Below are positions 1-23,988 of a DNA stretch of 32,199 nt, piece after piece (the stretch's first letter is position 1; the number at the start of each line of letters is the position of its first letter). Location: positions 1 through 32,199 of the forward strand of contig NZ_KB890606.1 in the NCBI RefSeq assembly GCF_000373145.1, given 5' to 3'. The DNA is from Thermus oshimai DSM 12092 (GTDB lineage: Bacteria; Deinococcota; Deinococci; Deinococcales; Thermaceae). The position numbers and the translations under genes were made by a program. A model generated the notes under the pieces. It saw only the letters and a program-made list of their open reading frames with translations. It did no database searches and was not told the DNA's origin.

Positions 1-273
1 GTTTTGGACCGGGCGGGGTGGCACACGTCTGGGCGGTTGGAGGTACCGGAGGGGATCCGCTTGGTCTTTCTGCCACCTTACAGTCCTGAGCTGCAACCGG
101 CGGAGCGGGTGTGGCCGTTGGTGAACGAGGCGGTGGCCAACCGGTACTTTGCGACCCTGGAGGAGATGATGGGGGTGGTGGCCGAGCGGTGCCGGACCCT
201 TGAGGAGGACCCAGCCACGGTGCGCAGGCATACCCTCTTTCACTGGTGGCCTAGGGTGAAGGAATCTACGTAA
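1..273 (+). CDS. IS630-family transposase, C-terminal fragment (cut by window edge)
   Basis: The frame is open from the first base and ends at a TAA at 271-273, giving about 90 residues. It carries the signature of the C-terminal half of an IS630-type DDE transposase: a V-L-D-R-A-G-W-H strand, then L-P-P-Y-S-P-E-L-Q-P-A-E-R-V-W, where the final Glu belongs to the DDE triad. The N-terminal part lies outside the window, so I cannot say whether the gene is intact. No inverted repeat could be recognised just downstream. It marks the left border of an accessory region that ends with another insertion sequence near 15.2 kb. Confidence 0.85.
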   Translation, partial: VLDRAGWHTSGRLEVPEGIRLVFLPPYSPELQPAERVWPLVNEAVANRYFATLEEMMGVVAERCRTLEEDPATVRRHTLFHWWPRVKEST

Positions 274-702: not shown

Positions 703-2532
703 CTACGAGCCTTTCCCCCAATGGGAGAGTTCTGCAACCACCTCTTCCAGAAGCCTCACCTTCAGCGGGACCACGAAGGGCTGATAGGGTTCAAAATACA
801 CGTACGAGTACCCCACGATGGGCTCGGAAAGCAAAAATCCCGTCACCGGGGCGAAGGCTACCTTGACCTTATGGAGAACCTTGGCATCCTCCTCGCTGGA
901 AACGTGCTTGACAAGGAAGTTCTCCGTTTGCGCGAGGATCTCCTTGGGGATATCCGAGGGGGACTGGGTAGAGTAAAGCATGCCCATGCCGTACTTCCGC
1001 CCCTCTTTGGCCACGCGGTAGAAGGGCCCCGCCTCGTCCCTAAGGAGATTATGGGCCTCTTCGATGACCACGATGAAGTCCGCCTGCCTCTCCCCATAAA
1101 GCTCCACGGCCTCCTGGAAGAGTTCGGCCATGAGGTGCTTGGTGAAGAAGTCCGCCATCTCCCCCAGGGAGGGAAGGTCCAGGATGACCACCTTTCCCCG
1201 CTCCTCAAAGAGGTCGGCCTTTACACGGGCCACCAGGTCCTGTTCCTCTCCAGGCGCATGTAACCTGTTGAGGAAGGAAAGGCGGTTCTTAAAGCGGTAT
1301 AGGTCCCGGGTACCCCCGGAAGCCTTTTTGCTCTTCCTCCTCTCCCCTTCCTGATCCCCTTCTTCCTCTTCCTCGTCCTGGGACCCTATGTCGAGCCTGG
1401 CCCTCAACTCCTCCCACCCTTCCCGCGAGTCAAGGCGGTAGGTCTGCTTGCCAAGGCGAACGGTAAACCCTGGGGAGGAGGCTAAACCCACACCCCTTAG
1501 GGCTCCGTAAACGTAGGCCATCCGGTTGGGGACGGCTTCCACGTCCTCCCAACCGAAGTAGACCCCCTCCAGGTACTGCGGGGGTTTTTCCCCAAGGAAG
1601 ACCGACCGGTGGTAGGCCAGCTCCACCGCCAGGCGGGGGTGCTTGTAGAAGTCCACCTTGAGGGGGCGCACCTCCACGTACTCGGCCAAGTCTTCAAGGC
1701 CCTTCCCGTGGCGGTTGGTGTAGAAGACGATGCGCCCCTTGAGGCCAAGCCGGGCAAAGGCCTGCACCAGGCCCATCTCCGTAGTACTAGTGGTCTGAAC
1801 CGCGTACTCCCCGTTGAGGTCGAAGATAAGGAACCCCGTTTCGGGGAAGGCGTGGGCCACCAGGGTGATGATCACCTTGTTCTCGTTGCTCTTGCCGAAG
1901 CCCGTCTTGCCGAAGTTGGCCGTCCTCCGCCCGCGGAAAAGGGCGGGGTCCACGGTTTTGCCCGCATCTTTATGCTCGGCCCCGGGCTCGTAGCCGCTCC
2001 CGTAGCAAAGGTACCCCAACCGGACCCTTCCCCCTGCATTTCCCTCCCCACCGCCTTGGGGAACCCCCACCGTGAGGTCCACCACCCGGGCCAGCTCGGC
2101 CTCCGTAAAGGGGTAGACCTCCACCCGGGTGATGGGCGGGATGGTACGGGTGGAGGGGTAGAAGCGGAGATGCCCTTCCTCCTCCCCCAGGGCCCCGAGG
2201 ATCACCAACACGAAGTGGAGGAAGTTATGCTCCTTAGCAGTCCAGACATCCTTCTTCAGGAAATCGGGGTCGTTCATGTGGCCGAGGCCCATCTCCCGAA
2301 GGTAGTCCCGTCCGGAAAGAGGGGCATAGTAGGCATCCCGTACCATGGCCACATAACGTCTCCGCCCCCCCCTTTCCTCGAAGACCACTTCCAGGAACTC
2401 CCCCAAAAGGGGCTTACGCTCCGCCCCAATCTCCTTGGGGGTGATGAGGAGCACCAGCTCCGTCCAGTACTCCCTCCGGCGGGACTCCACCACCACCCCC
2501 AGCTTTTCTTTGGCCGGCACCTGGCCCGTCAT
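703..2532 (-). CDS. HerA-like (FtsK/HerA superfamily, DUF87) P-loop ATPase
   Basis: A 609-residue protein with a Walker A loop (G-K-T-G-F-G-K-S-N, about residues 208-216) and a Walker B (F-I-V-V-I-E-E-A-H, about 486-494), followed by an S-T-Q sensor strand typical of HerA translocases. HerA proteins form hexamers that pump DNA and pair with NurA nuclease; the NurA-like gene is directly upstream. The ATG at 2532 overlaps the nurA stop as ATGA, so I prefer it to the GTG nine codons earlier. An acidic then basic low-complexity stretch (about 384-403) lies between the two Walker motifs. It is the last gene of the five-gene operon. The family is clear; the role in defence is inferred from neighbours. 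Confidence 0.85.
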   Translation of the reverse strand: MTGQVPAKEKLGVVVESRRREYWTELVLLITPKEIGAERKPLLGEFLEVVFEERGGRRRYVAMVRDAYYAPLSGRDYLREMGLGHMNDPDFLKKDVWTAKEHNFLHFVLVILGALGEEEGHLRFYPSTRTIPPITRVEVYPFTEAELARVVDLTVGVPQGGGEGNAGGRVRLGYLCYGSGYEPGAEHKDAGKTVDPALFRGRRTANFGKTGFGKSNENKVIITLVAHAFPETGFLIFDLNGEYAVQTTSTTEMGLVQAFARLGLKGRIVFYTNRHGKGLEDLAEYVEVRPLKVDFYKHPRLAVELAYHRSVFLGEKPPQYLEGVYFGWEDVEAVPNRMAYVYGALRGVGLASSPGFTVRLGKQTYRLDSREGWEELRARLDIGSQDEEEEEGDQEGERRKSKKASGGTRDLYRFKNRLSFLNRLHAPGEEQDLVARVKADLFEERGKVVILDLPSLGEMADFFTKHLMAELFQEAVELYGERQADFIVVIEEAHNLLRDEAGPFYRVAKEGRKYGMGMLYSTQSPSDIPKEILAQTENFLVKHVSSEEDAKVLHKVKVAFAPVTGFLLSEPIVGYSYVYFEPYQPFVVPLKVRLLEEVVAELSHWGKGS

Positions 2533-3710
2533 ACCTGGAGGATCCTCATGTACTTCCACCAGCGCTCCTCAGGAAGCCTTTCTCTTAACCGTTCCATGAT
2601 GGCCCTTCTCAGCTTTTGCGAGAGCCCCTCTCCAATGGAGGCCCGGCCGTGGGCTTCCTGCAGATACCCCACAGAGCCTCCGAAAAGGGCGCTCCTGGCC
2701 TCCTTTAGGACAGCGCCTATGGTCTTTACGCCTTCCTCGTCCACCCTCTCGGGAATGTCCAGAACCGCCACCGCCTGGCCCGGTTCCAGGGTTTCCTCAA
2801 AGAGGCGCAGGACATACCGCCTGCCCAGGCTGAAGGTCTGCTCCGCTTCCGCGTTCCATTGGCGCTCGTACTTGTAGGCCTCTTTCATGAGTTCCTCAGG
2901 CACACGGATGAGGAAGCGGCCATGCCCCAGCCGGTTTGCCTGGTCTTCCAGCCACTCCGAGATGACCAGGGAGATAAGGCCCTCCTGCACCATCCGGGAG
3001 CGCTTGGAAACACCCACGATAAGGGCCCCGCTTTGGGCAAAGTAGTCCTTCAGCTTCTTCCTGAAGCTGTTCTCCACCCCGGTCTGGGCCAGGCGGCCGT
3101 CCTTGATGAGGAGAAGCCGGGAAGGCCCCACAGCCCCGGAGAAGCCTTCCAGTATCCAGACCATATACGCCCACTCCAGGACCTCTCTCAAGACCCGGGT
3201 AAAACCTTCCAGATCCTTCTGGTAGTACGTCCCGAGGTCCTGGAGCCCAATCTTCGTCCTCCGGGAGAAGACCTGGAGGATCTCCCCTACAGCCCCCCAT
3301 TCCCCCGAAAACCGGGCCCTCATGGCCTCCCGGGCCCTCTCCCGAAACCCATCCGCTTCTCCTAGGCCTAAGAGGGCCGGAGGGGCGATCTGATCCTCGA
3401 CGGGAGGGAAGCGGAGCTCCTTTCCGCGCCCTCCCCAGGGAAAGGGCGAGGCGGAAACCCGCACCAACCCTATGGAGAGGAAGGGGTGTTCCCGGAAAAG
3501 GATGGACTGCCCTCCATCTACGGCTATGGCCACGGGGATCGGAGGATCTTGGGGGAGGTCAAAGGGGATGACATCCTCCTCCTTCAGGGTCTTTGAGAGA
3601 TCCTCTACCTTGTCAAAGAACCTGCAGTAAGCATCCACCACCCCTTCGTCTATCCGCTCCAAAAACCTCTCTACCCCGAACGGATTGGAGGGCTCTCCCG
3701 CGTAGGGCAT
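2529..3710 (-). CDS. NurA-like nuclease
   Basis: A 393-residue protein with the hallmarks of the NurA nuclease domain: a strand ending A-V-D-G-G-Q (Asp65) and a later strand L-L-L-I-K-D-G-R-L-A (Asp204), with acidic residues in the helix between (about 177-179), consistent with a two-metal RNase H-like active site. In archaea NurA and HerA together resect DNA ends. Here the gene ends in an ATGA overlap with the HerA-like gene, so the two are almost certainly translated together. The start at 3710 lies 27 bases after the stop of the DndC-like gene; the ribosome binding site is weak. In bacteria, HerA-NurA pairs are often found in defence islands. Confidence 0.8.
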   Translation of the reverse strand: MPYAGEPSNPFGVERFLERIDEGVVDAYCRFFDKVEDLSKTLKEEDVIPFDLPQDPPIPVAIAVDGGQSILFREHPFLSIGLVRVSASPFPWGGRGKELRFPPVEDQIAPPALLGLGEADGFRERAREAMRARFSGEWGAVGEILQVFSRRTKIGLQDLGTYYQKDLEGFTRVLREVLEWAYMVWILEGFSGAVGPSRLLLIKDGRLAQTGVENSFRKKLKDYFAQSGALIVGVSKRSRMVQEGLISLVISEWLEDQANRLGHGRFLIRVPEELMKEAYKYERQWNAEAEQTFSLGRRYVLRLFEETLEPGQAVAVLDIPERVDEEGVKTIGAVLKEARSALFGGSVGYLQEAHGRASIGEGLSQKLRRAIMERLRERLPEERWWKYMRILQV

Positions 3711-3737
3711 TGTCCACCCAAGAACAGGGTAGCACGT

Positions 3738-4778
3738 CTAGCCGTACCGGTTCCCGTATTTGGGCATCCGCCAGTAGCGCCCGATGAGGGCCCTCTCCTC
3801 CTCCGAAAGGAGGGGAAGCCCGGTGGAAGCCTGCAGGGCCTCGAGGCGCTCCAGGATGGCCCGCCTGGCCCCTAGGGTCAGCCTGCCCGGAACCCCATTC
3901 GGGCGAAGAACCCGGTTTTCGGGCCGGGCGCAGAACTCCAGGAGCCAGGTTCTGAACTCCAGGAGGGGGCGGTACCGCTCCCCATCCCGGGTGGCCGCGA
4001 TTCTGGCCAGGGCCTTCTCCTGGCGCACCACCGTGCAGGCCCAGCACCCGAAGCGGGTGTCCCGGCCCCCGTAGACCCCCTCGAGGCCCCCCGTGGGGTA
4101 GCCCCAGGAGGGGGCCACGTAGTTGAGGAAATCCCACACCTGGCACTCCCGCCAGAAGGCGATGGGGGCCAGGTAGAGGGCCCCGAGGCGATGGCTCTCC
4201 TCAAACCAGACCCCCTGGCCGCACTCTCCACCCCGGGAGCAGGAGAGGTGGAGGCGGGCATCCCGCGCGTCCGACTCCCCGAACCGCACCCCCGTGAGGA
4301 TGACCGGTTTCCCCCCAAGCCCCCGGACGATGCCGTCCATGGGGGCCACCTTGAGCCGCTTGGTGCACCACCGGAACCGGTTGTGGGGTGGGGGGTAGCC
4401 CTTCCCGATGACCTGCACCCAGAAGCTCTCCTCGGGGCGGGGCCGGGCGATGTGCACCCTGAGGGGCGGGTGGAGCCTCCCGAGGGCCTCGAGGAAGGAG
4501 AGGGCGTGGGCGTGGAGGGTGGGGATCTCCAGCCCCGTGTCCGCGTAAATCAGGTGGGCCTCTCCAGGATAACCCTTGCTCTTTAGCCATTCAAGTGTCA
4601 AAACGGCAAGGGCGGTGGAGTCCTTCCCCCCGGAGTAGGTGAGAACCCAGCGGTCCACCCCCCGGGAGAGGGCCCCCTCCAGGGCCCGGTGGGCCAGGGC
4701 CACCGCCTCCTTGAGATCCCCCCCAGACAGGGCCTCCAGGGGAGAGGGGAGGAGGGCCTCAAGGGGAATCGCGCTCAT
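3738..4778 (-). CDS. DndC-like PP-loop ATPase / PAPS-reductase-family sulfurtransferase
   Basis: A 346-residue protein with an S-G-G-K-D-S PP-loop at residues 49-54, the ATP-pyrophosphatase motif of PAPS reductases and DndC. Later come N-R-F-R-W-C-T-K-R-L-K (Cys138), T-G-V-R-F-G-E-S (about 162-169), and four cysteines at about 180, 186, 245 and 248, the last two in G-C-W-A-C-T-V-V, the pattern of the Fe-S cluster region of DndC. DndC takes part in replacing a DNA backbone oxygen by sulfur. Known DndC proteins are usually longer, and no DndB, DndD or DndE is present. It overlaps the upstream type ISP gene by ATGA. A role in DNA sulfur modification is likely from context but not shown; tRNA or nucleotide thiolation is the alternative. 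Confidence 0.75.
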   Translation of the reverse strand: MSAIPLEALLPSPLEALSGGDLKEAVALAHRALEGALSRGVDRWVLTYSGGKDSTALAVLTLEWLKSKGYPGEAHLIYADTGLEIPTLHAHALSFLEALGRLHPPLRVHIARPRPEESFWVQVIGKGYPPPHNRFRWCTKRLKVAPMDGIVRGLGGKPVILTGVRFGESDARDARLHLSCSRGGECGQGVWFEESHRLGALYLAPIAFWRECQVWDFLNYVAPSWGYPTGGLEGVYGGRDTRFGCWACTVVRQEKALARIAATRDGERYRPLLEFRTWLLEFCARPENRVLRPNGVPGRLTLGARRAILERLEALQASTGLPLLSEEERALIGRYWRMPKYGNRYG

Positions 4779-7700
4779 GCCCCTTCTCCTAGGGTGCCGA
4801 AGACCCTACTCAGGGTAGGCTCCACCTCACGGAAGACCCCCACCGTTTCCACCGCCGCCCGCACCGCCCGCCCGATGTGCTCCAGGAGCCAACGGGGATT
4901 CCCCTCTTCCCTTAGAAGCTTGTTGGGATCCCAGACGATGGCGGGGCCCTTGCCCTGGGGCACCTTCTCCTCCACCTTGAAGTACCGGACGATCCAGGTG
5001 AGGGGGTCGTACCCCCCGGGTTGCCAGAGGAAGGCCTCCTGGGGAATCCCCTTGAGTTCCACCCACTCGTTATACTGGAGGGTTCCCTTCTCCCTGTCCA
5101 GCCTCATTCGCTCCACCCGGTAGCGGTCGTAGGGATCCTCGGGGGCCTTGGGATCCACCTCCTCCACCAGGGGGTAGGGGTCAAGGCCCTCGTACTCTGC
5201 GTGGAGCTTCAGGAGCTTCTTCCCCGCCTCGACCAGGGCCCGGAAGTCTTCAGGGGCCCCGGGAAGGGGGAGCCGGGGCAGGCCGCCCTGTTTGAGGTCC
5301 TCCGCGAAGGTTTCCGCGTAGAGGGGGTGGGAAAGGACGGCGTAGACAAAGGCGAAGAGATCCTCAGGGGACACGTCCCCATAACGTTCCTTGAAGAGCT
5401 TTAGGGCTTCTGCCTTGATGTTGGAGCGCTTTTCTAGGGTTGGGTTTGAGGCATCCCCAAGGGTAAAGGCGGGTTCGTAGACGTAAAGGGGGAAGAGCTG
5501 GGTGCGGGTGACGAAGTCTAGGCTAACAACCACCTTTGTAGCCAAGGCAATGCTCCCTTGGGCTGTTCCTTGGCTGACCCCTATGGCTACGTTCTCCACT
5601 TCGGGGGTGGGCCACATGCGGGGGGTTTGGTAGACGCTGTTGTTGAATAACTCGCTGAAGTAAAGCCAGAGGGGCACGAAAGGTCGGTAGTTTGACCGAT
5701 AGATCCTTTCCCGTTCGTAAGCTTCGGCTTTGCCCCTCAAAAGATCTGCTTTGAGAAATCCATCCCACTTGATGAGGCTTTCGTCTTTCTTATCGGTTTT
5801 ATCGTTCTCAATCTTCTCTTCTAGATTCTTCTCGGTGATCTCTCCCCTCTTTACCCTCTCCAGGTAGGCCTCGTAGGTGGCGATGAATCGCCTCATATGG
5901 CGCTCCAGCTCCGCCCTAGAGGGGTTGAAGGTGTAGGCATCACGGTTAGTTTTCACTCCACCAGATCGCACCTCGAACACCTTCTCCGCCGGTACCATTT
6001 GCTCCCATGCCCCGCTGGCCTGCCCCAGCCACTCCTCCAGGGGTACCTCCCGCCAGGGGGTACCAAGGACGGAGCCGCGCTCTTCGACCTCCTTCAGTTT
6101 GGCCTCCGCCGAAAGCCTGTCCCTCACCCGGTAGAGGAAGACCTTACCCCGCTCCTGGTGGTCTTTGCGTTTGACCAGGAGGAGGAGGCAAATTCCCGAA
6201 CGGGTCAGGTTGCCAAATGGGTTTCCCCCCTCATTTCTCCGTTCCTCCCCTTTGGTTCTCGCATCCCCCCGAAGATCGTAGACATAGACCTCGGCGAACT
6301 CCTCCACCAGGGAGGCCCGCAAGCCCCGGGCCGCCTTCCCCGCAAGCCAGCCGTTGTTGGTCACCAGGGCGACGACCCCCTCCTCCACCCGGTCGGTGGC
6401 CATGCGCAGGGCATGGATGTAAAGGTCGTAGAGGGAGTTCAAAAGCTTGCCCTGTCTGGACTCCCCAGGGGGGAGGAGTTCCCAGAACCGCCGGACGTAG
6501 GTCTCCTCTATCCGCTTCCTGATCTTGGGGTAGCGGGCATTCCTCCCCTGCCCCTCTCGTTCGGCCCAGGCTCGCCACGGGGGGTTGGAGAGAACCACCT
6601 GGATGGGGCTTTCCACCTGCCGCTTGATGCGGTCGCTGTAGGTTTCGGGGAAGAGGGGGATTTGCGGGAGCCCGCCCTTCTCGTAGGCGTACTCCGCCAG
6701 CCGGAAGGAGTCCGCCAGGAGGGCCCCCTCAAAAGGGCGGTACTCCCCGGTGAGATCCAGGGCCTCCGCCTCCACGTTGGCCCGCATCACGTGGTAGGGC
6801 AGGAGGAGGATCTCGTTCCCGAACACCTCCCCCCGCTCCAGCTTGGCCCGGGTGCCCTCGGCCCCCAGGTGGTGGAGGAGGCGCACCAGGAAGGTGCCGG
6901 TGCCCGCGAAGGGCTCCAGGACGTAGACCCCTTCCCCCTCCAGGCCCCGCCCGAAGTGCTTCTTCAGGAGTTCGTCCGCGCTCCGCACCAGGTAGTCCAC
7001 CAGCTCCACCGGGGTGTAGGCGATCCCCATCTGATCCGCCACCCGGGAGAAGGCCTTCTTGAAGAAGGTGTCGTAGAGCCTGCGCAGGAAGTCCACCCGC
7101 TCCCCCCGGTCGGTGAGGCCCTGGGCTTTCAGGCGCACGCCCTCGTAGAAGCTCTGGAGGGCCTCCGTTTCCCGGGCCACCAGCCCCTCAAAGGTCTGCC
7201 AGAGCCCGTCCAAGGCCTCCGTGACGGGGTCCTTCCGGGCCTGCCTGAGTTCCCCGAAGAGGGCATCGAACACCGGCCCGGTGAGGAGGTGCTGCACCAG
7301 CATGAGGAGGGCCTCCTCCTCCCCGATCTCCTCGTTCACCACCTGGCGGAGGGCCTGGAGGAGGGCCTCCATCCCCTTCCGGGCCTCGGGGTGTTCCCGG
7401 ATCGCCCCCCGCAGGACCCCCTGGAGCCGCTCCGCGATCTTGGCCACCTCCTCCGCCCAGTCCTCCAGGTACCTCTCCCCCAGGCCCAGGCGCTTTACCA
7501 GCTTGCCCTTGATCACGGGGACGATGGCCCTTAGCTCCTCCCTCTCCAGGAGCCCGTCGAAGAGGAGGGGGGAAGACCCCTGGACATCCACCCTCACCGT
7601 GTCCCCGCTCTCCCTTTGGCCCTCGCCCTCCCCGGAAGCCCCCCTCACCAGCACCGCCCGGGTGCGGGCATCGAAGGTCTTGTCCACCGCCCGGAGGGCC

Positions 7701-9589
7701 GAGAGCACCTGCCACACCGTGCGGTAGCCCGCCCGTTCCAGCTCCGCCCCCTCGTCCTTCCCCCGCACGATGACCGGGAGGATCACGTAGCCGTAGGTCT
7801 TCCCCGGAGCCTTGCGCATGGCCCGGCCCACCGCCTGGATCACGTCCACCACGCTGTCCCGGGGGTGCATGAACACCACCCCGTCCAGGGCGGGCACGTC
7901 GATGCCCTCGGTGAGCACCTTGGCGTTGGTGAGGACGTGAACCGTGTCGGGCTCCTCTTCTGCAAGCCACCCGAGGAGCATCCGGCGATTGTAGGCAGAG
8001 TGGCTTCCGTCGATGTGCCGGATCTCCACCCCCTTGGGATCCTCCTCGGGGAAGAGGCCCGCCTCCCGGGCTGCTTGGGCCACCTTCACCAGCTCCGCCT
8101 CCAGGTCTTTGGACTTACGGATGGAGGGGTTGAAGACGATGACCCGCTTGAAGTCCACCTCTTCCCCCTCCACGTGCCCCTGGAGGACCCGCCAGAGCCC
8201 GATGGCCTTCAGGGTTTCCTCCACAGGGAGGGCCTGTGCCCTAAGCAGGTAGTGCGAGAGCTTTTCCTGAGCCTCCTCGGGAATGCCGAAGACGATGACC
8301 TTGTAGTCCGAGAGGTACCCCGCCCTCACCGCCTCCGCGAAGGTGTACTCGAAGAGGGTGGGCCCGTAGACCTCCTCGTTGTCCATGGAGAAGATCTCCA
8401 CCTGCACCTCTTCCTGGGGTGGGGCGAGAAGGGCTCCTCTCCTCCTGCCCGAAGCCGCCTCCCCGTTCCCCCCACCCCGCACCTCGTAGACCCTAGGGGT
8501 GGCGGTCATGTAGAGGCGGCGGTGGGCCCGGATCCGCTCGTCCTTGTGCACCGCGGCGAAGGGGGACTCCTGTCCCCTGAGCCCGGCCACCGCCGTGCGG
8601 TGGGCCTCGTCCATGACCATGAGGGCGAAGGGCCCCACCCCGTGCGCCTTCTGGGCCTGCTCCAGCACCTCCGAGGACTGGTAGGTGGAGAGGAGCACCA
8701 CGATCTCCTCGGGGTGCCGGGCCCGGATCTCCTTCAGGGCAGAGGCCAGCTCCTCCGCGCGGGTGGTAGGGGGGATGTGGAGGAGGGAGAGCTTAGAGAG
8801 GGTGTCCTCGTCCGTCCGCCCTACCCCCTGGTCCGAAACCACCGCCAGGTAGCGCAGGGGCTTCAGGGCGTTCTCCTCAAAAGCCCGCAGGGTCTGGTCC
8901 AGGAGGGCGATAGAGGGGGCGAAGAAGACCGCCACCTCCCCGGGGGAAACGAGGGCCTCGATGGCCCGGAGGGCCACCAGGGTCTTCCCCGTGCCCGGGG
9001 GCATGATGAGCTTGCCCCGGCCCCCCGCCTTCAGCTTCTCCTGGATCTTCTCCAGGGCCTCCTCCTGGTAGGGGCGGAGGGCCCTCGGCTCCTTCTTCTT
9101 CAGGGCCTCCAGGTTCTCAGGATCCAGGGAGTCGGGGTCCAGCCCGGCGAGGAGGTCCTCCTCCTTGAGAACGACCACCCGCCGGGGGAGCCCCGAAAGC
9201 TTGTTCTCCGCCTCCGTGGTCACCCCGCTCGGGGCCACAAGGAGGCCCCCTTTGAACCCATAAAGGTCCAGGCTCCCCACGAAGGTGCCCAGGGCCTTCC
9301 ACCCCAAGGGCTCGTCCCAGAGCTTGACCTGGATCCCCCAGGCCTCCCCGGTTTCCTCCACCCCCACCAGGTCTATCCCCGTGTCCTTGGAGGCAAGACC
9401 CCTCTCCCGGGCCCACTCCCCCCACGGGAGCACACGGGTAAAGGTGCGGCTCCACTCGGGGTGGAGTTCCTTCAGAACCTTGCGGACAAAGCGCTCGAAG
9501 AGCTTAGGGCCCTCCTGGCCGTACTTTTGGAAGCGTTCATGTAGGAAGCCCTTTGCTGAGGGCTTTAGGGGAAAGAGTTCTTGGAACAC
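4775..9589 (-). CDS. Type ISP-like restriction-modification enzyme (Mrr nuclease-SF2 helicase-N6-adenine methylase-TRD)
   Basis: A 1604-residue single polypeptide with the layout of LlaGI/LlaBIII-type enzymes. Residues 1-140 hold an Mrr-like nuclease (T-G-I-D-L-V, Asp73; G-I-Q-V-K, Gln87/Lys89). Residues 170-600 are an SF2 helicase (M-P-P-G-T-G-K-T at 196-203, DEAH at 327-330, T-A-T-P-R at 362-366, Q-A-V-G-R-A-M-R at 585-592). A helical spacer follows, then a methylase core (E-P-F-A-G-T-G-T-F at 892-900; N-P-P-W at 1002-1005). The C-terminal third should recognise the target site. All key residues are present, so it appears active. The GTG start has a strong AAGGAGGT site and sits 21 bp after the helicase gene. 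The family length (about 1570-1600) fits. Confidence 0.88.
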   Translation of the reverse strand: MFQELFPLKPSAKGFLHERFQKYGQEGPKLFERFVRKVLKELHPEWSRTFTRVLPWGEWARERGLASKDTGIDLVGVEETGEAWGIQVKLWDEPLGWKALGTFVGSLDLYGFKGGLLVAPSGVTTEAENKLSGLPRRVVVLKEEDLLAGLDPDSLDPENLEALKKKEPRALRPYQEEALEKIQEKLKAGGRGKLIMPPGTGKTLVALRAIEALVSPGEVAVFFAPSIALLDQTLRAFEENALKPLRYLAVVSDQGVGRTDEDTLSKLSLLHIPPTTRAEELASALKEIRARHPEEIVVLLSTYQSSEVLEQAQKAHGVGPFALMVMDEAHRTAVAGLRGQESPFAAVHKDERIRAHRRLYMTATPRVYEVRGGGNGEAASGRRRGALLAPPQEEVQVEIFSMDNEEVYGPTLFEYTFAEAVRAGYLSDYKVIVFGIPEEAQEKLSHYLLRAQALPVEETLKAIGLWRVLQGHVEGEEVDFKRVIVFNPSIRKSKDLEAELVKVAQAAREAGLFPEEDPKGVEIRHIDGSHSAYNRRMLLGWLAEEEPDTVHVLTNAKVLTEGIDVPALDGVVFMHPRDSVVDVIQAVGRAMRKAPGKTYGYVILPVIVRGKDEGAELERAGYRTVWQVLSALRAVDKTFDARTRAVLVRGASGEGEGQRESGDTVRVDVQGSSPLLFDGLLEREELRAIVPVIKGKLVKRLGLGERYLEDWAEEVAKIAERLQGVLRGAIREHPEARKGMEALLQALRQVVNEEIGEEEALLMLVQHLLTGPVFDALFGELRQARKDPVTEALDGLWQTFEGLVARETEALQSFYEGVRLKAQGLTDRGERVDFLRRLYDTFFKKAFSRVADQMGIAYTPVELVDYLVRSADELLKKHFGRGLEGEGVYVLEPFAGTGTFLVRLLHHLGAEGTRAKLERGEVFGNEILLLPYHVMRANVEAEALDLTGEYRPFEGALLADSFRLAEYAYEKGGLPQIPLFPETYSDRIKRQVESPIQVVLSNPPWRAWAEREGQGRNARYPKIRKRIEETYVRRFWELLPPGESRQGKLLNSLYDLYIHALRMATDRVEEGVVALVTNNGWLAGKAARGLRASLVEEFAEVYVYDLRGDARTKGEERRNEGGNPFGNLTRSGICLLLLVKRKDHQERGKVFLYRVRDRLSAEAKLKEVEERGSVLGTPWREVPLEEWLGQASGAWEQMVPAEKVFEVRSGGVKTNRDAYTFNPSRAELERHMRRFIATYEAYLERVKRGEITEKNLEEKIENDKTDKKDESLIKWDGFLKADLLRGKAEAYERERIYRSNYRPFVPLWLYFSELFNNSVYQTPRMWPTPEVENVAIGVSQGTAQGSIALATKVVVSLDFVTRTQLFPLYVYEPAFTLGDASNPTLEKRSNIKAEALKLFKERYGDVSPEDLFAFVYAVLSHPLYAETFAEDLKQGGLPRLPLPGAPEDFRALVEAGKKLLKLHAEYEGLDPYPLVEEVDPKAPEDPYDRYRVERMRLDREKGTLQYNEWVELKGIPQEAFLWQPGGYDPLTWIVRYFKVEEKVPQGKGPAIVWDPNKLLREEGNPRWLLEHIGRAVRAAVETVGVFREVEPTLSRVFGTLGEGA

Positions 9590-9610
9590 ACCGACCTCCT
9601 TTTGGGGATT

Positions 9611-12106
9611 CTAAACCTCATATTCGAGACCTAGGCGCTGGGCAAGTCGAGGCCCATTGAGCCAGGTGCAGGTAATAGGATCCACCTCACCAGAAGAAAG
9701 CGCTTCGTATAAAGCCTGGAGTCCCTTGACCCCATAGTGCTTCTTGAGGTAGCGTATCCGCCGGTGAAAGATATCTTCCCGACCTCTAGTCAGAGGAGCA
9801 TAAGCCCGAAGCGCCGCCTCTAGTTGGGCAAGGGAGGAGGGCTGAGGAAACTTATCCTTTCGGTAACTTAGATCCTGGAGCGGGGGAGCACCCGACCTGA
9901 AACGTACATCGCTAGGGCTAGTAAGCCTTTCATGAAAATGGCTTTTGGCCCAAGCGTACCAACCGACGAGGGTACCTTCTGCTGTGTGGGCCACCGCTTT
10001 CCACTTGCGACCAATATCGAGAGCTTCCCCCAAAATCTCCATCCGTCGAGCCCTTGCAGCAAAGAAAAAGGCTTCTCGCACACGCCCTGGATCTTCCCCT
10101 GCCATGATCTTACGGTACAGGAGTTTCCCCGTACCCATGTAGATTGCCACTGCTTGAAGAAACCAAAGAAAAGCCAAAAGGGTTTCTCGGGAAACCCCTT
10201 CCAATAGGGAACCTGCTTTCACAGGAATGGCTCCTAGGTGAGCTTCCTCTTCCAGGAAGTCCCATGCAACCCCTTCGACGCCTGCTTCTTCAGAAATACG
10301 AGTCATGGAGTCTAACCACCTTTGCATTTCCTGGGTTGTCGGGAGATAGGATGGAGGAACAGGGGCAGTAAAACCTGGGGGAAGAAACGGGCTTAGCTTA
10401 AGGATATCCTCATAAACCAGGTAGGCCTGAAAGCGGATAGATCCATCCCTATCCCTAAGGTAGCGAAGGATAAAATCCCATGCCCCATCGGCTTCAGCCA
10501 TCGTTTGAAGCCCTAAAGGCGCTTCCTCAGGAGGGAGGGAAACCACTTTTTGGCCTTCATGGCTACTGGGGCTAGAAACTTTTGTTTTCAAGGGAAAGAT
10601 CAGAGCTGGAGAAAGGTCTTCCTCTTCCTCCTCCACATTCCCGGAAAGCTTCTCTAAACTCAGATGCTCCTTGGCTCGGGTAATGGCCACATAGAAGAGG
10701 TTCTCCTCCTCCTGGAGCTCAGGGGAAACTTTTGCGGGCGGACCCTCACCCCTAAGCCAGCGCCCTGCGCCTTTCCAGAGGAAGTCCCTCCAGAGGAGCA
10801 CTCGGTCCCATTCCCGCCCCTTGGCCTTATGGGCCGTAGATAGAACAAGGGAAACCCCCTCTTCCTCAAAGGCGTGCATGGCTTTCACCCGGTCAGCCAA
10901 CCCCCGGAGGTCGGGGTACTTGCGAGCTAGCTTCAGGAGTCCCTTCAGGAAAGGGTTGACTTGGGCCAACTCCCATGCTTCTTTCCAAGACTCCACAATT
11001 AGCAGATCGGGATGTGGGTGCCGCCTTGGAACCCCCTCCTTGAGATCTGCCAGATCCTCTAAAAGCTGAACCACCTCCTTCACACCCCCCACCACATGGG
11101 CCTTTCCCCTGGGAAGGTCTTGCCCCAGCTCCAGAAGAGCTTCCAGAAGGCCTAGGTTGGTGCGGGTTAGGACGGTAAAGGGGTAGGAGGGCCTGGCGGA
11201 GTTCACCTCCGTGGGCCAATTGGCCTTCCCCACCACCCCCACCGGCCCCTGGCTTTGCCTAGAGGTCACCTCCCGGACAAACCGGGCCAGCCCCTCACCA
11301 AATCGGAAGCTCCAGCTCAGCTGGCTTTCCGGCAGGTTTACCCCCGCCATGGCGTTTACCGCCCCTCTCCAGGCGTAGATCTGCTGGCGAGGGTCCCCCA
11401 CCAGGACCAGCTGGACTTTCCCCTTCCAAGCTTGAAGTATGGCCTGGAAGTTAGGATCTAGGTCCTGCGCCTCATCCACCAGGACCGCATCCACGGAAGG
11501 GGGACGATCCCCAGCCCCCCTCTCCCTCCAGAGGCGCACGTATCCGTCGTGGGAAAGGGGGAAGGGATCGTTTTCGTCCACCATGGCCTGCCAGAGTTCC
11601 CATACCCCATCGAGGATGTTTTCTATAAGCTCTTCCGCTACCTGTTTCCTTTGGGCCCACTCGCGGGGAAGGTGGTGGGGTTGGGGCCAGGGATCGGTGG
11701 AGCGGATAAAGCGTTCCAAGGTCTCCCGCAGCACGTAGGCTAGGACGGGATCCTCTGGGTCTAGACGCTCTTGGACATCGGCGATGCTGACCTTGCCGTC
11801 CGACCTCCTCACCTTTTGCTCATAGGCTCGGTTACCTTTTACCACATGGTCGTGGGCAAAGCCGTGTAGGGTTTTCACATAGGTGTTGCGGGGAAACCTG
11901 ATCTCAGCCTCCTCCCGCACAGCCCGGTTAAAGGCCAGATAAAGGAGACTTTCCCGCAGGCTCTCCTGGGCCAGGTAGCGCAGGGTGGAGGTCTTTCCCG
12001 AGCCCGCCACCGCCACCAGCTTGAAGGACGCCCCCGAGCGGAAGCGGCGGAGGGCCGCCTCCTGCTCCGGCGTGGGGGAAAACCCCTTTGGGCCTGACAG
12101 CCGCAT
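9611..12106 (-). CDS. UvrD/Rep-like SF1 helicase with long unassigned C-terminal extension
   Basis: An 831-residue protein. Helicase motifs: Walker A A-G-S-G-K-T-S (34-40), D-E-A-Q-D (211-215), G-D-P-R-Q-Q-I-Y-A-W-R-G (237-248), S-T-A-H-K-A-K-G-R-E-W (423-433), and Y-V-A-I-T-R-A-K-E-H (472-481). The helicase ends near residue 490. The remaining 340 residues show no motif I know, and their DNA is less GC-rich (a 60-base count at 10141-10200 gave 45 percent). The UvrD-like core should unwind DNA 3'-5'. It is the first gene of the leftward operon, so it is expected to work with the type ISP enzyme and HerA-NurA. The ribosome binding site before the ATG at 12106 is weak. Confidence 0.85.
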   Translation of the reverse strand: MRLSGPKGFSPTPEQEAALRRFRSGASFKLVAVAGSGKTSTLRYLAQESLRESLLYLAFNRAVREEAEIRFPRNTYVKTLHGFAHDHVVKGNRAYEQKVRRSDGKVSIADVQERLDPEDPVLAYVLRETLERFIRSTDPWPQPHHLPREWAQRKQVAEELIENILDGVWELWQAMVDENDPFPLSHDGYVRLWRERGAGDRPPSVDAVLVDEAQDLDPNFQAILQAWKGKVQLVLVGDPRQQIYAWRGAVNAMAGVNLPESQLSWSFRFGEGLARFVREVTSRQSQGPVGVVGKANWPTEVNSARPSYPFTVLTRTNLGLLEALLELGQDLPRGKAHVVGGVKEVVQLLEDLADLKEGVPRRHPHPDLLIVESWKEAWELAQVNPFLKGLLKLARKYPDLRGLADRVKAMHAFEEEGVSLVLSTAHKAKGREWDRVLLWRDFLWKGAGRWLRGEGPPAKVSPELQEEENLFYVAITRAKEHLSLEKLSGNVEEEEEDLSPALIFPLKTKVSSPSSHEGQKVVSLPPEEAPLGLQTMAEADGAWDFILRYLRDRDGSIRFQAYLVYEDILKLSPFLPPGFTAPVPPSYLPTTQEMQRWLDSMTRISEEAGVEGVAWDFLEEEAHLGAIPVKAGSLLEGVSRETLLAFLWFLQAVAIYMGTGKLLYRKIMAGEDPGRVREAFFFAARARRMEILGEALDIGRKWKAVAHTAEGTLVGWYAWAKSHFHERLTSPSDVRFRSGAPPLQDLSYRKDKFPQPSSLAQLEAALRAYAPLTRGREDIFHRRIRYLKKHYGVKGLQALYEALSSGEVDPITCTWLNGPRLAQRLGLEYEV

Positions 12107-12147
12107 GGCCTCGGGACCATTCTAACGGCCAGAAGGGGGCCCGAACA

Positions 12148-12183
12148 GGAAGGCCCCCGGGGGACATCCCCCGGGGGCCTTCC
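12148..12183. terminator. Perfect 16-bp hairpin with ACAT loop in the operon leader
   Basis: Two 16-base arms (GGAAGGCCCCCGGGGG and its complement) flank a 4-base loop. No T-run follows on either strand. It lies between the CRISPR-like repeats and the helicase gene, so on the bottom strand it is part of the predicted leader transcript. It may be an attenuator, the terminator of an older CRISPR transcript, or an mRNA-stabilising structure. Confidence 0.6.
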
Positions 12184-13978: not shown

Positions 13979-15234
13979 GGTCGTGTCAAGAGGTTTGTGT
14001 AGAAGTTTGTGTACGAGGGGCATACCGCTCCCGTAGCATCCTTTCCAATACCTCCCGCACCTCAGCAAAGCCCTTCAGTCTGCGCTCCGCCCACCTCCCC
14101 TCCTGGCGTTCCCCCTCCAGGTACAAGAGCTTGTACACCGCCTCAGGCCGGGGAAACTTATGGCCCCGCACCTTCGTCCCACGCCTCACCTCCCGGATAA
14201 ACCGCTCCATCAGATGGGTGCTCCGCAAATACGGCCAAAGAACCTCCGGGTACTCGTAAAACCGCAAAAGACTCCGGGAGTCCTCCCACCATCCGGCCAC
14301 CACACCAGGGTATCTGCTCCCCACGCCTCCCTAAACCCCCCCAGGGCCCTCAACGCCTCCGCCCGGGTCCCCGCCAGGTACACCCCCTTCAAAGCCTCCG
14401 CCACCAAGCCCCTGTCCCGCACCCGCACCCCGGCTAGGCTGGAGCGCACCATGTGCACCACGCACCGCTGCCATCCGGCTAGGGGGTACACCCTCCGGAT
14501 GGCCTCCTCCATACCCGGAAGGCCATCGGTCACGAAGAGCAGAACCCGCCGTAGGCCCCTCTCCCAAAGCTCCCGCAGAACCTCCTCCCACCCCGAGGCC
14601 CCCTCCGTGGGGAGGAGCCAAAACCCCAGCAGCATCCTCTCCCCACCTGGGGTGAGGCCTAGGGCCACGTACACCGTCTCCCGCTCCATCCCAAGCCCCT
14701 CCCTCAGCACCTTCAAGGAGAAGCCATCCAGGTAGACGAAAGCCATCTCCTCGGGTAAAGGCCGCCTCCGGAAACCCTCCACCCTCTCCAGCACCCCGTC
14801 CGTGATGGCGCTGACCGTCTCGTGGGTGTACCGGTGCCCCAGAAGGAGGCTCAGGACCTCGGCCGCCTTGCGCTGGCTGAGGCCTGCGGCGTAGAGGGCG
14901 ATGGCCACCTCCCCCAGGTCCACGGTGCGGCGGGCGTAGGGTTGGAGGAAGCTGGGGTGGTACCGGCCTTCCCGGTCCCTGGGGACGGCCAGCTCCACCT
15001 GGCCGAAGGGGGTTTCCAGCTTGCGGGGGTAGTGGCCGTTTTTGCGCCCGCCGTGTTGCTGTAGGAAGGCTTCCCGGTCGGCTTCCAGGAGAACCTGCAA
15101 GACCTCGGTTACCGCTGCCGTTAACACTTCCTTCAAGAGCATCTGCAGGGTATGCTGGTCCATGGGGTACCTCCTCTTGCATCTGGTACCCCCCATTCAT
15201 ACACAAACCTCTACACAAAATTCCTTACACGACC
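13979..15234 (-). mobile_element. IS256-family insertion sequence, about 1.26 kb
   Basis: The ends are imperfect inverted repeats of about 36 bases. The left end starts GGTCGTGTCAAGAGG and continues with TTTGTGTAGAAGTTTGTGTA. The right end, read on the bottom strand, starts GGTCGTGTAAGGA and continues with TTTTGTGTAGAGGTTTGTGTA. Between them lies a single, frameshifted transposase gene. I could not find a clean target duplication next to the ends, so the exact ends may be off by a few bases or one flank has changed. Confidence 0.8.
13986..15163 (-). pseudogene. IS256-family (mutator-type) transposase, frameshifted
   Basis: The ATG at 15163 has a strong GAGGAGG site. The first 277 or so residues carry the family text, including Y-L-D-G-F-S-L (Asp146) and F-V-T-D-G-L-P-G-M (Asp213). 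Near F-R-E-A-W-G the frame leaves the family pattern. A -1 shift at a GGGG run (14319-14322) restores it: S-R-Y-P-G-V-V-A-G-W-W, then H-L-M-E-R-F-I-R-E-V-R-R-G-T-K with the final Glu, to a stop at 13986 inside the left inverted repeat. The shift is either a one-base deletion (inactive enzyme) or, less likely, programmed -1 frameshifting. Confidence 0.85.
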
Positions 15235-15547: not shown

Positions 15548-16006
15548 CTAGATCCGAAACACCGGCAGGACCAGCCGGGGTAGGCCCATCCCCCCGGTGA
15601 GGAGGTCCAGGTACACCCTCAGGTAGGGCCAGAGGTTGAGGGGCAGATTGCGCTCGGCAAAGACCCGGAAGGTGGCCTCGTCGGGGAATAGGGGAGAGGC
15701 GTAGACCCCCTGGATCTCCAGCGCCATGCGTCCGAATGACCCCTCGGCGTCCTTCAGGTTTAGGTCCAGCCTGAGCCCTGCCCGGAATCCCCCTTCTTCC
15801 TCCTCGGGCCCCAGGGGCTTAAGGACCATCTCCACCGCCAGCTCCCCCGGGTGGGGCTTGCGATGGAGTTCCGCCTCCACCCGGGAGAGGAACACCTGCC
15901 GGATCTCCAGACCCCCGATGAAGCGGCCGTAGGCCTCGGGGTCTACCTCCGGAACCGCCTTGGCTTTGCTGGTCTTCTGACTTCTGCCCTTACCCTTTCC
16001 AGCCAT
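15548..16006 (-). CDS. SecB-like chaperone of a toxin-antitoxin-chaperone (TAC) module
   Basis: A 152-residue protein with a basic N-terminus, then the SecB-like pattern L-E-I-R-Q-V-F-L-S-R-V-E-A-E-L and near the end F-A-E-R-N-L-P-L-N-L-W-P-Y-L-R-V-Y-L-D-L-L-T-G-G-M-G, which corresponds to the C-terminal helices of SecB. In TAC modules such as Rv1955-Rv1957 of M. tuberculosis a SecB-like protein protects the antitoxin and so controls the toxin. Its start lies 2 bases after the stop of the HigA-like gene, in the same order as known TAC operons. A housekeeping SecB role is less likely in this context. Confidence 0.75.
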   Translation of the reverse strand: MAGKGKGRSQKTSKAKAVPEVDPEAYGRFIGGLEIRQVFLSRVEAELHRKPHPGELAVEMVLKPLGPEEEEGGFRAGLRLDLNLKDAEGSFGRMALEIQGVYASPLFPDEATFRVFAERNLPLNLWPYLRVYLDLLTGGMGLPRLVLPVFRI

Positions 16007-16008
16007 GA

Positions 16009-16419
16009 CTAGGCGGCGTGGGAAGCTTCGGAAGAGGCCTCACCCTTCCCCTCAGACCAGGAGAGGTGCACGGTCCAGACCCGAGGCAGGCCGGGGATCG
16101 CGCCCACGGGCAGGTAGGCCACCTCCCCCCCTTCCCGGTCCTGGAAGCCCAGGAGGAGCCGGTATCCCAGGGCGTCCGCGTAGCGGGCCAGGCTCTCTAG
16201 GGACATGGCCAGGCCCCCGTAGGCCTCCATCTGGGCCACCCGGCTCCGGTGCACCCCCATGCGCCGGGCCACCTCCTCCTGCTTGAGCCCCCGCTTCCGA
16301 CGGAGCTCCTTGAGGAAGTGGCGGAGCTCCTCCTCCAGGCTCTCCCGGTAAAGCTCCTGGAAGGTACGGTCTTCCAGATCCTCCTGGAAGAACTCGTCCA
16401 CGCTGGTGAGCTTGCGCAT
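16009..16419 (-). CDS. higA: HigA-like XRE-family antitoxin with C-terminal extension
   Basis: A 136-residue protein. Residues 30-66 hold a helix-turn-helix (R-K-R-G-L-K-Q-E-E-V-A-R-R-M-G-V-H-R-S-R-V-A-Q-M-E) of the XRE/HigA type. From about residue 92 a tail with Trp115 and Trp121 extends beyond the usual DNA-binding domain. In TAC systems such a tail is the chaperone addiction region that makes the antitoxin depend on SecB; that assignment here is inferred. The ATG at 16419 is 14 bases after the toxin stop, with an AGGG site. It should bind its own promoter at 16809-16837. Confidence 0.8.
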   Translation of the reverse strand: MRKLTSVDEFFQEDLEDRTFQELYRESLEEELRHFLKELRRKRGLKQEEVARRMGVHRSRVAQMEAYGGLAMSLESLARYADALGYRLLLGFQDREGGEVAYLPVGAIPGLPRVWTVHLSWSEGKGEASSEASHAA

Positions 16420-16433
16420 CGTGCGACCTCCCT

Positions 16434-16796
16434 TCACGGTTTTTCCTTTCTCCCCTTGGCCTTTTGGTTGTACTCCTCGTAGGCCCTCAGGGCGTACTCC
16501 ACCAGGCTGGGGTCGGCCTTGCTCCTGGACTTCACCTCCCCTGCCGCCGCTACGAAGAGCTTTTCCTCCTGGCGCCAGTAGTAGATGCGCAGGCCGGAGC
16601 GGTGGCGGACCTCCCATATGGGCCCCCGGATGTGCTTCACCTGATCCGAGGAGGCCTGGAGCGCCGCGGTGGGGAGGAACTCGCGAAGGAGCCACATGGC
16701 CTTGGTGTAGAGATAGGGGTTGTCCCTCTTAAGCCTTCCGAGCCACTCCTTGATCTGGGAGCGGCCCTGGGGGTCCTGGTAGAGGACAACCTTCAA
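16434..16796 (-). CDS. higB: HigB/RelE-like toxin (phage Gp49-like family)
   Basis: A 120-residue basic protein with the RelE/HigB pattern: an N-terminal strand M-K-V-V-L-Y, a helix containing Q-I-K-E-W-L, then V-K-H-I-R-G-P-I-W-E-V-R-H-R-S-G-L-R-I-Y-Y-W and a helical Lys/Arg-rich tail. Members cut mRNA on the ribosome. The reading starts with TTG at 16796 behind GAGGTGGGG. The toxin is first, antitoxin second, chaperone third, the arrangement of higBA-type TAC operons. A ParE-like activity is possible but less likely. Confidence 0.8.
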   Translation of the reverse strand: MKVVLYQDPQGRSQIKEWLGRLKRDNPYLYTKAMWLLREFLPTAALQASSDQVKHIRGPIWEVRHRSGLRIYYWRQEEKLFVAAAGEVKSRSKADPSLVEYALRAYEEYNQKAKGRKEKP

Positions 16797-16808
16797 TCCC
16801 CACCTCGT

Positions 16809-16837
16809 ATGTTAGCTAAAAGTAACTTCTGGGTCAA
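16809..16837 (-). promoter_or_regulatory. Promoter of the toxin-antitoxin-chaperone operon
   Basis: On the bottom strand TTGACC (16832-16837) is followed after 17 bases by TAACAT (16809-16814). The expected start is near 16802, only about six bases before the TTG start codon, so the mRNA would be nearly leaderless. The HigA-like antitoxin is the likely repressor. Confidence 0.6.
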
Positions 16838-17115
16838 GTTGCCTGGATCCCTCGTCCACATAGGAAAGCGAACTGCTGTCAGTGGATATTTTACAACCCA
16901 ATCTCCTTTGTGGTGAAAGGACGGCCTTTTCAAACGCATGCCCCAATTCCTTCCCCCACCAGCCCGATGGCGGGCACCCGGTCCTTCGGGATTCCGGAAA
17001 AGAGGGCGTGAAAAGGACGCGAGGCGCAGGGACAAATCCCCCTCTCTTTAAGACCTCCCGCTGCGAGGCCTTTTCCTAAGTGTGCTTTCCAGAACAGAGA
17101 CCGACGGGGAGGATA
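16838..17115. other. Divergent intergenic region between the TAC and paa operons
   Basis: This stretch separates the leftward TAC promoter from the rightward paa promoter. It holds some short inverted sequences (for instance around the TTCG at 16984-16987) but no open frame, RNA gene or other site I can support. Confidence 0.4.
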
Positions 17116-17144
17116 TTGACTTTTAACTGACCGGATGGTTAAAT
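17116..17144 (+). promoter_or_regulatory. Promoter of the paaA operon
   Basis: TTGACT (17116-17121), 17 bases, then TTAAAT (17139-17144). The spacer is filled by the palindromic operator at 17122-17143, so a bound repressor would block RNA polymerase directly. Confidence 0.65.
17122..17143. promoter_or_regulatory. PaaR-type operator, copy 1 (paaA promoter)
   Basis: The arms TTTAAC (17122-17127) and GTTAAA (17138-17143) are exact inverted copies around TGACCGGATG. The core CTGACCGG recurs in the two sites between the aldehyde dehydrogenase and livK genes. The TetR regulator at 21014-21637 is the natural binder. Confidence 0.7.
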
Positions 17145-17165
17145 AACCTTGGGAGGTGATCCCAA

Positions 17166-18101
17166 GTGCTGGTGTCGGAAGAAGCCCTTTTGGAGAGGAT
17201 CCGCTCGGGGCGCTTGATTGAAGGGCCCGAGTACGCCACAGAGAAGTACCTGGAAGGCCTTAAGCGCACCCTGGTGGTTTCCGCGGATACAGAGCTCATC
17301 AGCGCCCCCGCCTACTTCCGTGCTGCCCAGGATGCTCCCAACATCAACGCCTACATCTCCGCTATGGGAATCATTCAGGACGAGCTGGGGCACGCCCACA
17401 TCGCCTACCGCCTTCTCCGGGACCTCGGGGTGGATACGGATGCCCTGGTTTTCGAGCGGGATCCAAAGGCCTTCAAGCACCCCTACGCCTTTGATGTGCC
17501 TCTGGAGAGCTGGGTGGAGCTGGTGGTGGCCAACGCTTTCTACGACCGGGCCGGGTTTGTCCTGCTAGGGGACGTGTACCGGTCCACCTCTTACGGCCCT
17601 TGGAAGCGGGCCCTGGTGAAGGTGGACCGGGAGGAGAACTTCCACCTGCGCCACGGCGAAAGGTGGATGGAGATCCTGGCCCAGGACCCCGAGCAGAAGA
17701 AGAAGCTCCAGCGGGCTGTGGACTGGATGTTCGTCCTGACGCTGGAATGGTTTGGCCTTCCGGACAACCTCAAGCGCCACACGGAGCAGATCACCTACGG
17801 CCTCAAGGGGAAGACCAACGACCAGCTCCGGCAGGAGTGGATGAGCACCGCTGTTCCCCTCTGCGAACGTCTGGGCCTTAAGGTTCCGGCCCACTACGAG
17901 CCCGATCTGGGGCAGTACGTCATCGACGTACCCTTCCCGGCGGAGTTTGATGCGGAGAGAAAGGAGTGGCTCTTTGATAAGGGGCCCATCAGCTGGGACA
18001 GGGTGCTGGAGCGCTGGAAAGGCCGTGGCCCGGCCAATGAGGAGTTGGTGAAGGCCATCCAGAGGGGCTACGAGCAGATCCGTAAGGGGCTCAAGGCTTA
18101 G
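17166..18101 (+). CDS. paaA: Ring 1,2-phenylacetyl-CoA epoxidase, catalytic subunit PaaA
   Basis: A 311-residue ferritin-like di-iron protein. Iron ligands are visible as Glu43 (A-D-T-E-L-I-S-A-P), Glu73-x2-His76 (D-E-L-G-H-A-H) and Glu157-x2-His160 (E-E-N-F-H-L-R-H). PaaA with PaaC forms the core that turns phenylacetyl-CoA into its 1,2-epoxide with oxygen. The GTG at 17166 follows a near-perfect GGGAGGTGAT site. It opens the rightward paa operon under the operator-covered promoter. Length matches the family. Confidence 0.95.
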   Translation: MLVSEEALLERIRSGRLIEGPEYATEKYLEGLKRTLVVSADTELISAPAYFRAAQDAPNINAYISAMGIIQDELGHAHIAYRLLRDLGVDTDALVFERDPKAFKHPYAFDVPLESWVELVVANAFYDRAGFVLLGDVYRSTSYGPWKRALVKVDREENFHLRHGERWMEILAQDPEQKKKLQRAVDWMFVLTLEWFGLPDNLKRHTEQITYGLKGKTNDQLRQEWMSTAVPLCERLGLKVPAHYEPDLGQYVIDVPFPAEFDAERKEWLFDKGPISWDRVLERWKGRGPANEELVKAIQRGYEQIRKGLKA

Positions 18102-18113
18102 GGGGAGGCGGCC

Positions 18114-18419
18114 GTGCTGAACCAGGAAACCGTTTTGGAAGCCCTTAGGGAGGTCCTGGACCCCGAGTATCCGGTGAGCGTGGTGGACTTGGGCCTCATC
18201 CGGGGGGTGGAGGTGGAAGGGGGGCGGGTTCGGGTGCGCCTCACCTTTACCAGCCTGGGCTGCCCCTGCACGGAGATCATCCGCGAGGACATCGTGAACC
18301 GGTTGAAGGCCCTGGAGGGGGTGGATGAGGTCGTGGTGGAGGAGGTCTTCGAGCCCTGGTCGGCCAAGGACATCTCCCCCAGGGGTCGCTTGGTCCTTCT
18401 CCAGCTGGGGGTGGTTTGA
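18114..18419 (+). CDS. paaD: PaaD N-terminal-type DUF59/MIP18 protein
   Basis: A 101-residue protein consisting only of the DUF59 domain: an N-terminal helix, D-P-E-Y-P-V-S-V-V-D-L-G-L-I, and the T-S-L-G-C-P-C motif with the conserved Cys-Pro. PaaD takes part in maturing the epoxidase, probably in iron or Fe-S delivery. The usual PaaD of about 165 residues carries a C-terminal zinc ribbon, absent here and found as a separate gene at 19537. Starts at GTG 18114, 12 bases after paaA. Its stop overlaps the next ATG (TGATG). Confidence 0.85.
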   Translation: MLNQETVLEALREVLDPEYPVSVVDLGLIRGVEVEGGRVRVRLTFTSLGCPCTEIIREDIVNRLKALEGVDEVVVEEVFEPWSAKDISPRGRLVLLQLGVV

Positions 18420-18634
18420 TGGGCTTGGTGGGCGGTGGCGAGAGGGTGGGGGAGTACTACGAGGTCTTCGCCCGTTACGAGCCGGAGGAGCCCCTTAGGC
18501 ACATTGGGACAGTGCGGGCCAAGACCCCAAAGGACGCGGAGGTCTTCGCCTACACCCTCTACGACGAGTGGAAGTGGCGGGAGATGTTCGTGGTGCCCCG
18601 CCGGGAGCTGGTATGGGTGAGGAGGCCGGAATGA
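18419..18634 (+). CDS. paaB: PaaB-like epoxidase subunit, copy 1
   Basis: A 71-residue protein with the PaaB core Y-Y-E-V-F-A-R-Y-E-P-E-E-P-L-R-H-I-G-T-V followed by A-E-V-F-A-Y-T-L-Y and ending V-V-P-R-R-E-L-V-W-V. E. coli PaaB is about 95 residues and reads Y-E-V-F-V-R-G-K-Q-G-L-S-H-R-H-V-G-S at the same place; the last 25 residues are missing here. PaaB bridges PaaAC units. The ATG overlaps the paaD stop. A second PaaB-like gene follows at once. Confidence 0.8.
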   Translation: MGLVGGGERVGEYYEVFARYEPEEPLRHIGTVRAKTPKDAEVFAYTLYDEWKWREMFVVPRRELVWVRRPE

Positions 18635-21637: not shown

Positions 21638-21648
21638 CCCCTATTAGG

Positions 21649-22419: not shown

Positions 22420-22423
22420 ACCC

Positions 22424-23878: not shown

Positions 23879-23900
23879 CTTCCCACCTCCAGTCCCTCGG

Positions 23901-23929: not shown

Positions 23930-23956
23930 CCCATCGGGGTTGGGGTGGGGGACGGC

Positions 23957-23986: not shown

Positions 23987-23988
23987 AA
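23967..23988. promoter_or_regulatory. PaaR-type operator, copy 3
   Basis: TTTATC-TGACCGGTTA-GACTAA. It lies across the spacer and -10 box of the rightward promoter; its first half is a direct copy of site 2. Confidence 0.65.

Follow-up and report, generated by a model that had tools for sequence, protein, structure and literature searches.

TdpA, TdpB and TdpC are said to make up the 'Tdp machinery', a DNA phosphorothioation system that protects thermophiles against phages and was reportedly described by An et al. in 2025. In this system TdpC reportedly inserts sulfur after adenylating the DNA backbone, while unmarked DNA is said to be degraded by TdpAB. Another arrangement with partly similar gene content is that of the element ICETh1 of T. 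thermophilus HB27, in which genes for a restriction-modification (RM) enzyme, NurA, TdtA and a methylase are co-transcribed and all required for DNA donation; in this tdtA operon the restriction enzyme and a NurA-like nuclease work with TdtA, an ATPase of the HerA/FtsK type, to export chromosomal DNA (PMC5365140, PMC7767461). Here we describe a locus in the window, that is, the whole stretch of 32,199 nucleotides of Thermus oshimai DSM 12092 that was analysed (Table 1). We are highly confident that it is a tdpC-tdpB-tdpA anti-phage system, joined at its 5' end by a type ISP enzyme and an FBH1-like SF1 helicase, which are co-oriented and probably co-transcribed with it. The locus thereby receives a name and a mechanism, and a sequence-only reading that had taken all five genes for one machine is corrected to a three-gene Tdp core with two apparently recruited genes.

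Table 1. Features of the locus, its surroundings and related phage genes (positions in the window unless another contig is given).
Feature	Position	Strand	Description
IS630-type transposase fragment	1-273		flanks the region
tdpA	703..2532	-	HerA/FtsK-type ATPase-translocase, 609 aa from ATG 2532; PF01935, PF05872
tdpB	2529..3710	-	NurA-like nuclease, 393 aa; PDB 8wet_G TdpB match
tdpC	3738..4778	-	DndC-like PP-loop sulfurtransferase, 346 aa; PF01507, TIGR03183, PADLOC DndC
Type ISP restriction-modification enzyme	4775..9589	-	1604 aa; PF18135 E 6e-72, PF22240 E 5e-26
SF1A UvrD-like (FBH1-like) helicase	9611..12106	-	831 aa; PF00580, PF13361
TAGAAT, -10-like hexamer	12119-12124	-	13 nt ahead of helicase ATG; read from sequence
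Inverted repeat	12148..12183	-	16-bp arms, 4-nt loop; upstream of helicase gene; read from sequence
Mutator-type transposase gene	14210-15196		flanks the region
IN93/P23-77-like phage/prophage tdpC	L069:6031-7089; L070:8745-9944; L071:8404-9603; L082:1710-2669; L179-L181		

ORF calling recovered five minus-strand reading frames at the coordinates given earlier (703 to 12106), with the junctions that the sequence-only reading had described: a 21 bp gap between the helicase and ISP genes, a 4-bp ATGA overlap between the ISP and dndC-like genes, a 27 bp gap between the dndC-like and nurA-like genes, and a further ATGA before the herA-like gene if this starts at ATG 2532 and not at GTG 2559, to which its ORF runs upstream. 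The family calls of that reading also held, for UvrD, ISP, DndC and HerA through domain searches and for NurA through its match to TdpB in sequence and in an AlphaFold2 model, as did its statement that every catalytic motif is intact in the five proteins. HerA has its Walker A (GKTGFGKSN) and Walker B (VVIEEAHN) motifs, NurA has VDGG and KDGRL, and the DndC-like protein retains SGGKDS, RWCT and GCWACT with its cysteines. The same is true of the ISP enzyme (D-QVK, PPGTGKT, DEAH, EPFAGTGTF, NPPW) and of the helicase, whose motifs include AVAGSGKT and VDEAQD. Upstream of the helicase gene, the inverted repeat is possibly the terminator of the preceding unit and TAGAAT possibly the operon promoter with a short leader; promoter and terminator consensus scans of the window gave a signal no higher than in shuffles, and an Rfam scan of the window was empty. 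The transposase genes on both sides are consistent with a mobile island. Further along, positions 16000-32199 carry two PaaA_PaaC-family genes, an enoyl-CoA hydratase, an aldehyde dehydrogenase and a periplasmic binding protein, probably a phenylacetate-type catabolic cluster that is not defence-related.

Judged by homology, and for TdpB also by its predicted structure, the last three genes are a TdpC-TdpB-TdpA operon, a described phosphorothioate-based anti-phage system; the earlier statement that the set matched no named system thus does not apply to this core. A literature search for the combination of DndC, NurA and HerA gave no match, because the Tdp papers use other names, and it was a PDB sequence search that revealed the identity. 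With phmmer, the window HerA matched 8wet_A, deposited as TdpA (E 5.9e-182, residues 16-611), and the window NurA matched 8wet_G, deposited as TdpB (E 1.3e-77, residues 1-383). Compared with solved structures, profiles that combined the window proteins with their relatives gave E 6.6e-141 for TdpB and 3.9e-257 for TdpA, and the matches for both proteins are the cryo-EM structures 8wet and 8wfd. The NurA gene had no match in Pfam, NCBIfam or PADLOC; in Foldseek its AlphaFold2 model (mean pLDDT 78) found 8wfd_G and 8wet_G as best matches (E 2e-25) and Sulfolobus NurA 2ygk more weakly (E 1.8e-6). Since a PDB search returned no deposited TdpC structure, the identity of TdpC rests on operon linkage and on homology to DndC: the protein matches PF01507, and the DndC models of TIGR03183 and PADLOC matched it below their curated cut-offs. 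The match to DndC models would also be expected of a degraded or classical Dnd system, with dndC left after the loss of its partners. This we regard as extremely improbable, since the TIGR03183 score is 143 against a cut-off of 290, the operon holds no DndA, B, D or E, the linkage to NurA and HerA is kept in distant phyla, and the TdpAB match contradicts it. Domain and model searches for DndD and DndE among the five proteins gave no match, and the neighbours of the dndC-like gene are NurA-like and HerA-like.

The conservation of the trio points to a unit of three genes. A scan of one genome per species over 84,980 species with two exact peptide patterns returned nine loci for the alignment of the window HerA, a number that is therefore a lower bound: two in Thermus, three in Fimbriimonadales, one in Anaerolineales and three on contigs of metagenome-assembled genomes (MAGs) that bear the labels Clostridiales, Brevinema and 'bacterium', of which the short ones may be misbinned. 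The conserved neighbourhood envisaged by the sequence-only reading was borne out for the trio, whose DndC-NurA-HerA order is kept in 9/9 loci from five phyla by record title (including Armatimonadota and Chloroflexota), and not for the ISP and helicase genes, which are found apart. The most diverged locus, L141, shows 37%, 27% and 27% identity for DndC, NurA and HerA, and tdpC is present in L136 and L137 too, as whole-genome search and translation showed. On the 5-kb 'Clostridiales' contig, identity to Thermus genes is 55-68%, falling to 43% for NurA. Moreover, the same order occurs in five further Thermaceae genomes, and among 111 Deinococcota genomes a HerA of the TdpA family was found only together with the trio (strong matches, E<=1e-60, in seven genomes, all seven with the trio). 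Four Thermus genomes share one chromosomal site for it; the window and G049 carry it elsewhere.

Some loci resemble parts of this arrangement. Genome G048 has three consecutive genes (L144:6087-10613), for an HsdM_N plus DruA (Druantia) protein, a NurA recognised by Pfam and a HerA/DUF87 ATPase, possibly another NurA-HerA module with a different partner. In genome G007 three contiguous genes (L153:5918-10104) encode a D12 adenine methyltransferase, a TdpA-related HerA (HMM E 4e-54) and a protein of 446 aa with no Pfam match, possibly a methylation-based cousin of Tdp. Two plasmids, one of Deinococcus (L081:9440-13074) and one of Endozoicomonas (L084:6569-9051), carry distant TdpC/DndC-like genes directly 3' of genes for DNA cytosine methyltransferases; the Endozoicomonas plasmid also has RecT and YqaJ phage-type genes.

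The two outer genes look like recruited defence-island neighbours joined upstream of tdpC, which is the simplest reading of the sequence comparisons. Besides PF18135 and PF22240, the ISP protein has Mrr, ResIII and N6_Mtase domains, so that one chain comprises an Mrr nuclease, an SF2 helicase-translocase, a coupler, an N6 methyltransferase and a target recognition domain, and it matches LlaBIII (4xqk) over near full length (E 2e-208, residues 26-1586). Its nearest relative, with 58% identity over 1,241 aligned positions, lies on the 12.9-kb T. thermophilus plasmid pHB5002c, where the gene is unannotated and crosses the record start (NZ_AP024303.1 1-3698 and 11824-12912; L237), and a broken relative is found on contig C11 (L073) of the window's own genome. 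The closest solved relative of the helicase is F-box DNA helicase 1 (FBH1; E 2e-41); its C-terminal ~330 aa have no recognised fold, and its GC3 is 0.62 against 0.76-0.89 in the other four genes. In no examined locus outside this genome do the ISP and helicase genes lie beside Tdp or beside each other, and an FBH1/UvrD helicase as a Tdp subunit is absent from the other Tdp loci examined.

These data bear directly on the proposal of one integrated five-gene machine, in which methylation and sulfur marks would be read jointly and ISP cuts would pass to the SF1 helicase and HerA-NurA for processing. The tight junctions along the operon and the intact state of all five genes speak for it. We nevertheless consider it unlikely, given that the five-gene set was found in no other genome while the trio recurs alone, that the helicase deviates in GC3, and that helicase homologues occur in other contexts in several Thermus genomes and plasmids, for example after a Swt1-HEPN/DUF499 gene. 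A two-mark version, in which methylation and phosphorothioation would jointly license DNA and the helicase would feed the ISP enzyme or TdpAB, appears just as improbable; if true, it would be a composite not described before. At the same time, the ATGA overlap and the short gaps could equally mark a real functional coupling of ISP and Tdp in this strain.

For the preferred reading of a Tdp core with two recruited genes, the gene identities, intact motifs, three-gene linkage and missing ISP and helicase genes at other Tdp loci are directly seen; activity, co-transcription and the following division of labour are what we infer. TdpC would activate the DNA backbone in an ATP-dependent manner and then insert sulfur, as An et al. 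reportedly describe, with the sulfur presumably supplied by housekeeping cysteine desulfurases; cysteine desulfurase-type genes are present elsewhere in the genome. TdpA may act as a hexameric DNA translocase that bears the NurA-like nuclease TdpB, and TdpB would degrade DNA that lacks the sulfur mark. Independently, the ISP enzyme would methylate host sites and translocate on and cleave unmethylated DNA, so that one operon may hold two stacked self/non-self systems. The earlier picture of a defence locus that marks and destroys DNA, with sulfur in the mark and NurA and HerA working together, is retained here. The earlier reading gave HerA-NurA only the task of clearing DNA ends left by ISP cleavage; the TdpAB structures and the literature on Tdp suggest instead that TdpA-TdpB is the restriction part. 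A natural disruption fits this assignment: in G029, about 1.2 kb of inserted DNA, accompanied by a 9-bp target duplication, interrupts tdpB at base ~545 (L067:9879-12149), and tdpC and tdpA are whole despite it. Loss of tdpB with tdpC kept is what one would predict for a restriction gene and its modification partner, since by restriction-modification logic a strain can do without the destroying part as long as it retains the marking part.

The order RM - NurA - HerA is similar to that of ICETh1, and one could think of a transjugation-like DNA-donation module analogous to the tdtA operon. We hold this to be very unlikely, because TdpB and TdpA are the closest matches of the window NurA and HerA, no RM enzyme accompanies Tdp at the other loci, a tRNA scan of the window found no tRNA gene, and the scanned ORFs include no integrase. 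When a HerA profile was used to look for tdtA homologues within the genus, no clear TdtA emerged.

The Tdp core itself is already described, and of greatest interest is a result outside the main finding, which concerns the tdpC genes of phages and prophages. The Thermus phage Tsatsa, viral contigs L179-L181 and prophages in three genomes (G032, G034 and G038, the last being T. parvatiensis) have tdpC without tdpA or tdpB; contig L071 is a prophage, since it encodes endolysin, packaging ATPase and virion protein families. Viral scans for relatives of TdpA and TdpB found none in viral sequences. Over 926 bp, the host tdpC of G029 is 99.0% identical in DNA to the prophage copy of G034. A maximum-likelihood tree places the Thermus phage copies inside a clade of Thermaceae host copies (support 99/97 and 100/100), with one phage group among the host copies of G026, G029 and G038 (95/93), and because the phage copies nest in the host clade, transfer probably went from host to phage. 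The Tsatsa gene has been described as an insert relative to IN93, its role left open (PMC11437467). We hypothesise that phage tdpC is probably an anti-Tdp gene, with which a phage would sulfurate its own DNA and escape TdpAB, much as phage methyltransferases evade ordinary restriction; the gene would then be under selection for evasion. The 'PAPS reductase' genes of IN93-type phages fall with the Tdp modification gene of the hosts, and self-sulfuration of such phages is the direct prediction.

Compared with known systems, the window shares with DndABCDE-FGH and SspABCD-E/FGH a DndC/SspD-like PP-loop sulfurtransferase, and a HerA-like ATPase is also found in DndH (7es4), but the window lacks DndD/E or SspB/C and its nuclease is NurA-like. 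The ICETh1 tdtA operon is alike in gene content, with a restriction enzyme, a NurA-like nuclease and a HerA/FtsK ATPase adjoining, whereas its enzyme is of type IIG and not ISP, it has no sulfurtransferase, and its role is DNA donation. With LlaBIII and LlaGI the window ISP enzyme shares the single-chain architecture and differs in sharing an operon with Tdp. The 'PAPS reductase' of Tsatsa / P23-77, 67% identical in protein to the window TdpC and within the Thermus TdpC clade, is, unlike the window operon, a phage gene without tdpA or tdpB. Closest of all is TdpABC itself (PDB 8wet, 8wfd, 8y1k; An et al. 2025, Nat Chem Biol 21:1160), with which the window has in common the tdpC-tdpB-tdpA order, full-length homology of TdpA and TdpB and intact motifs; against T. 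parvatiensis, whose TdpA and TdpB sequences match the PDB letters where the alignments are printed, identity is about 53-55% for TdpA and 41-44% for TdpB. It differs from TdpABC in the ISP and SF1 helicase genes directly upstream in the same orientation, and among the loci examined this genome's is the only one where Tdp is combined with a restriction enzyme unrelated to it and a helicase.
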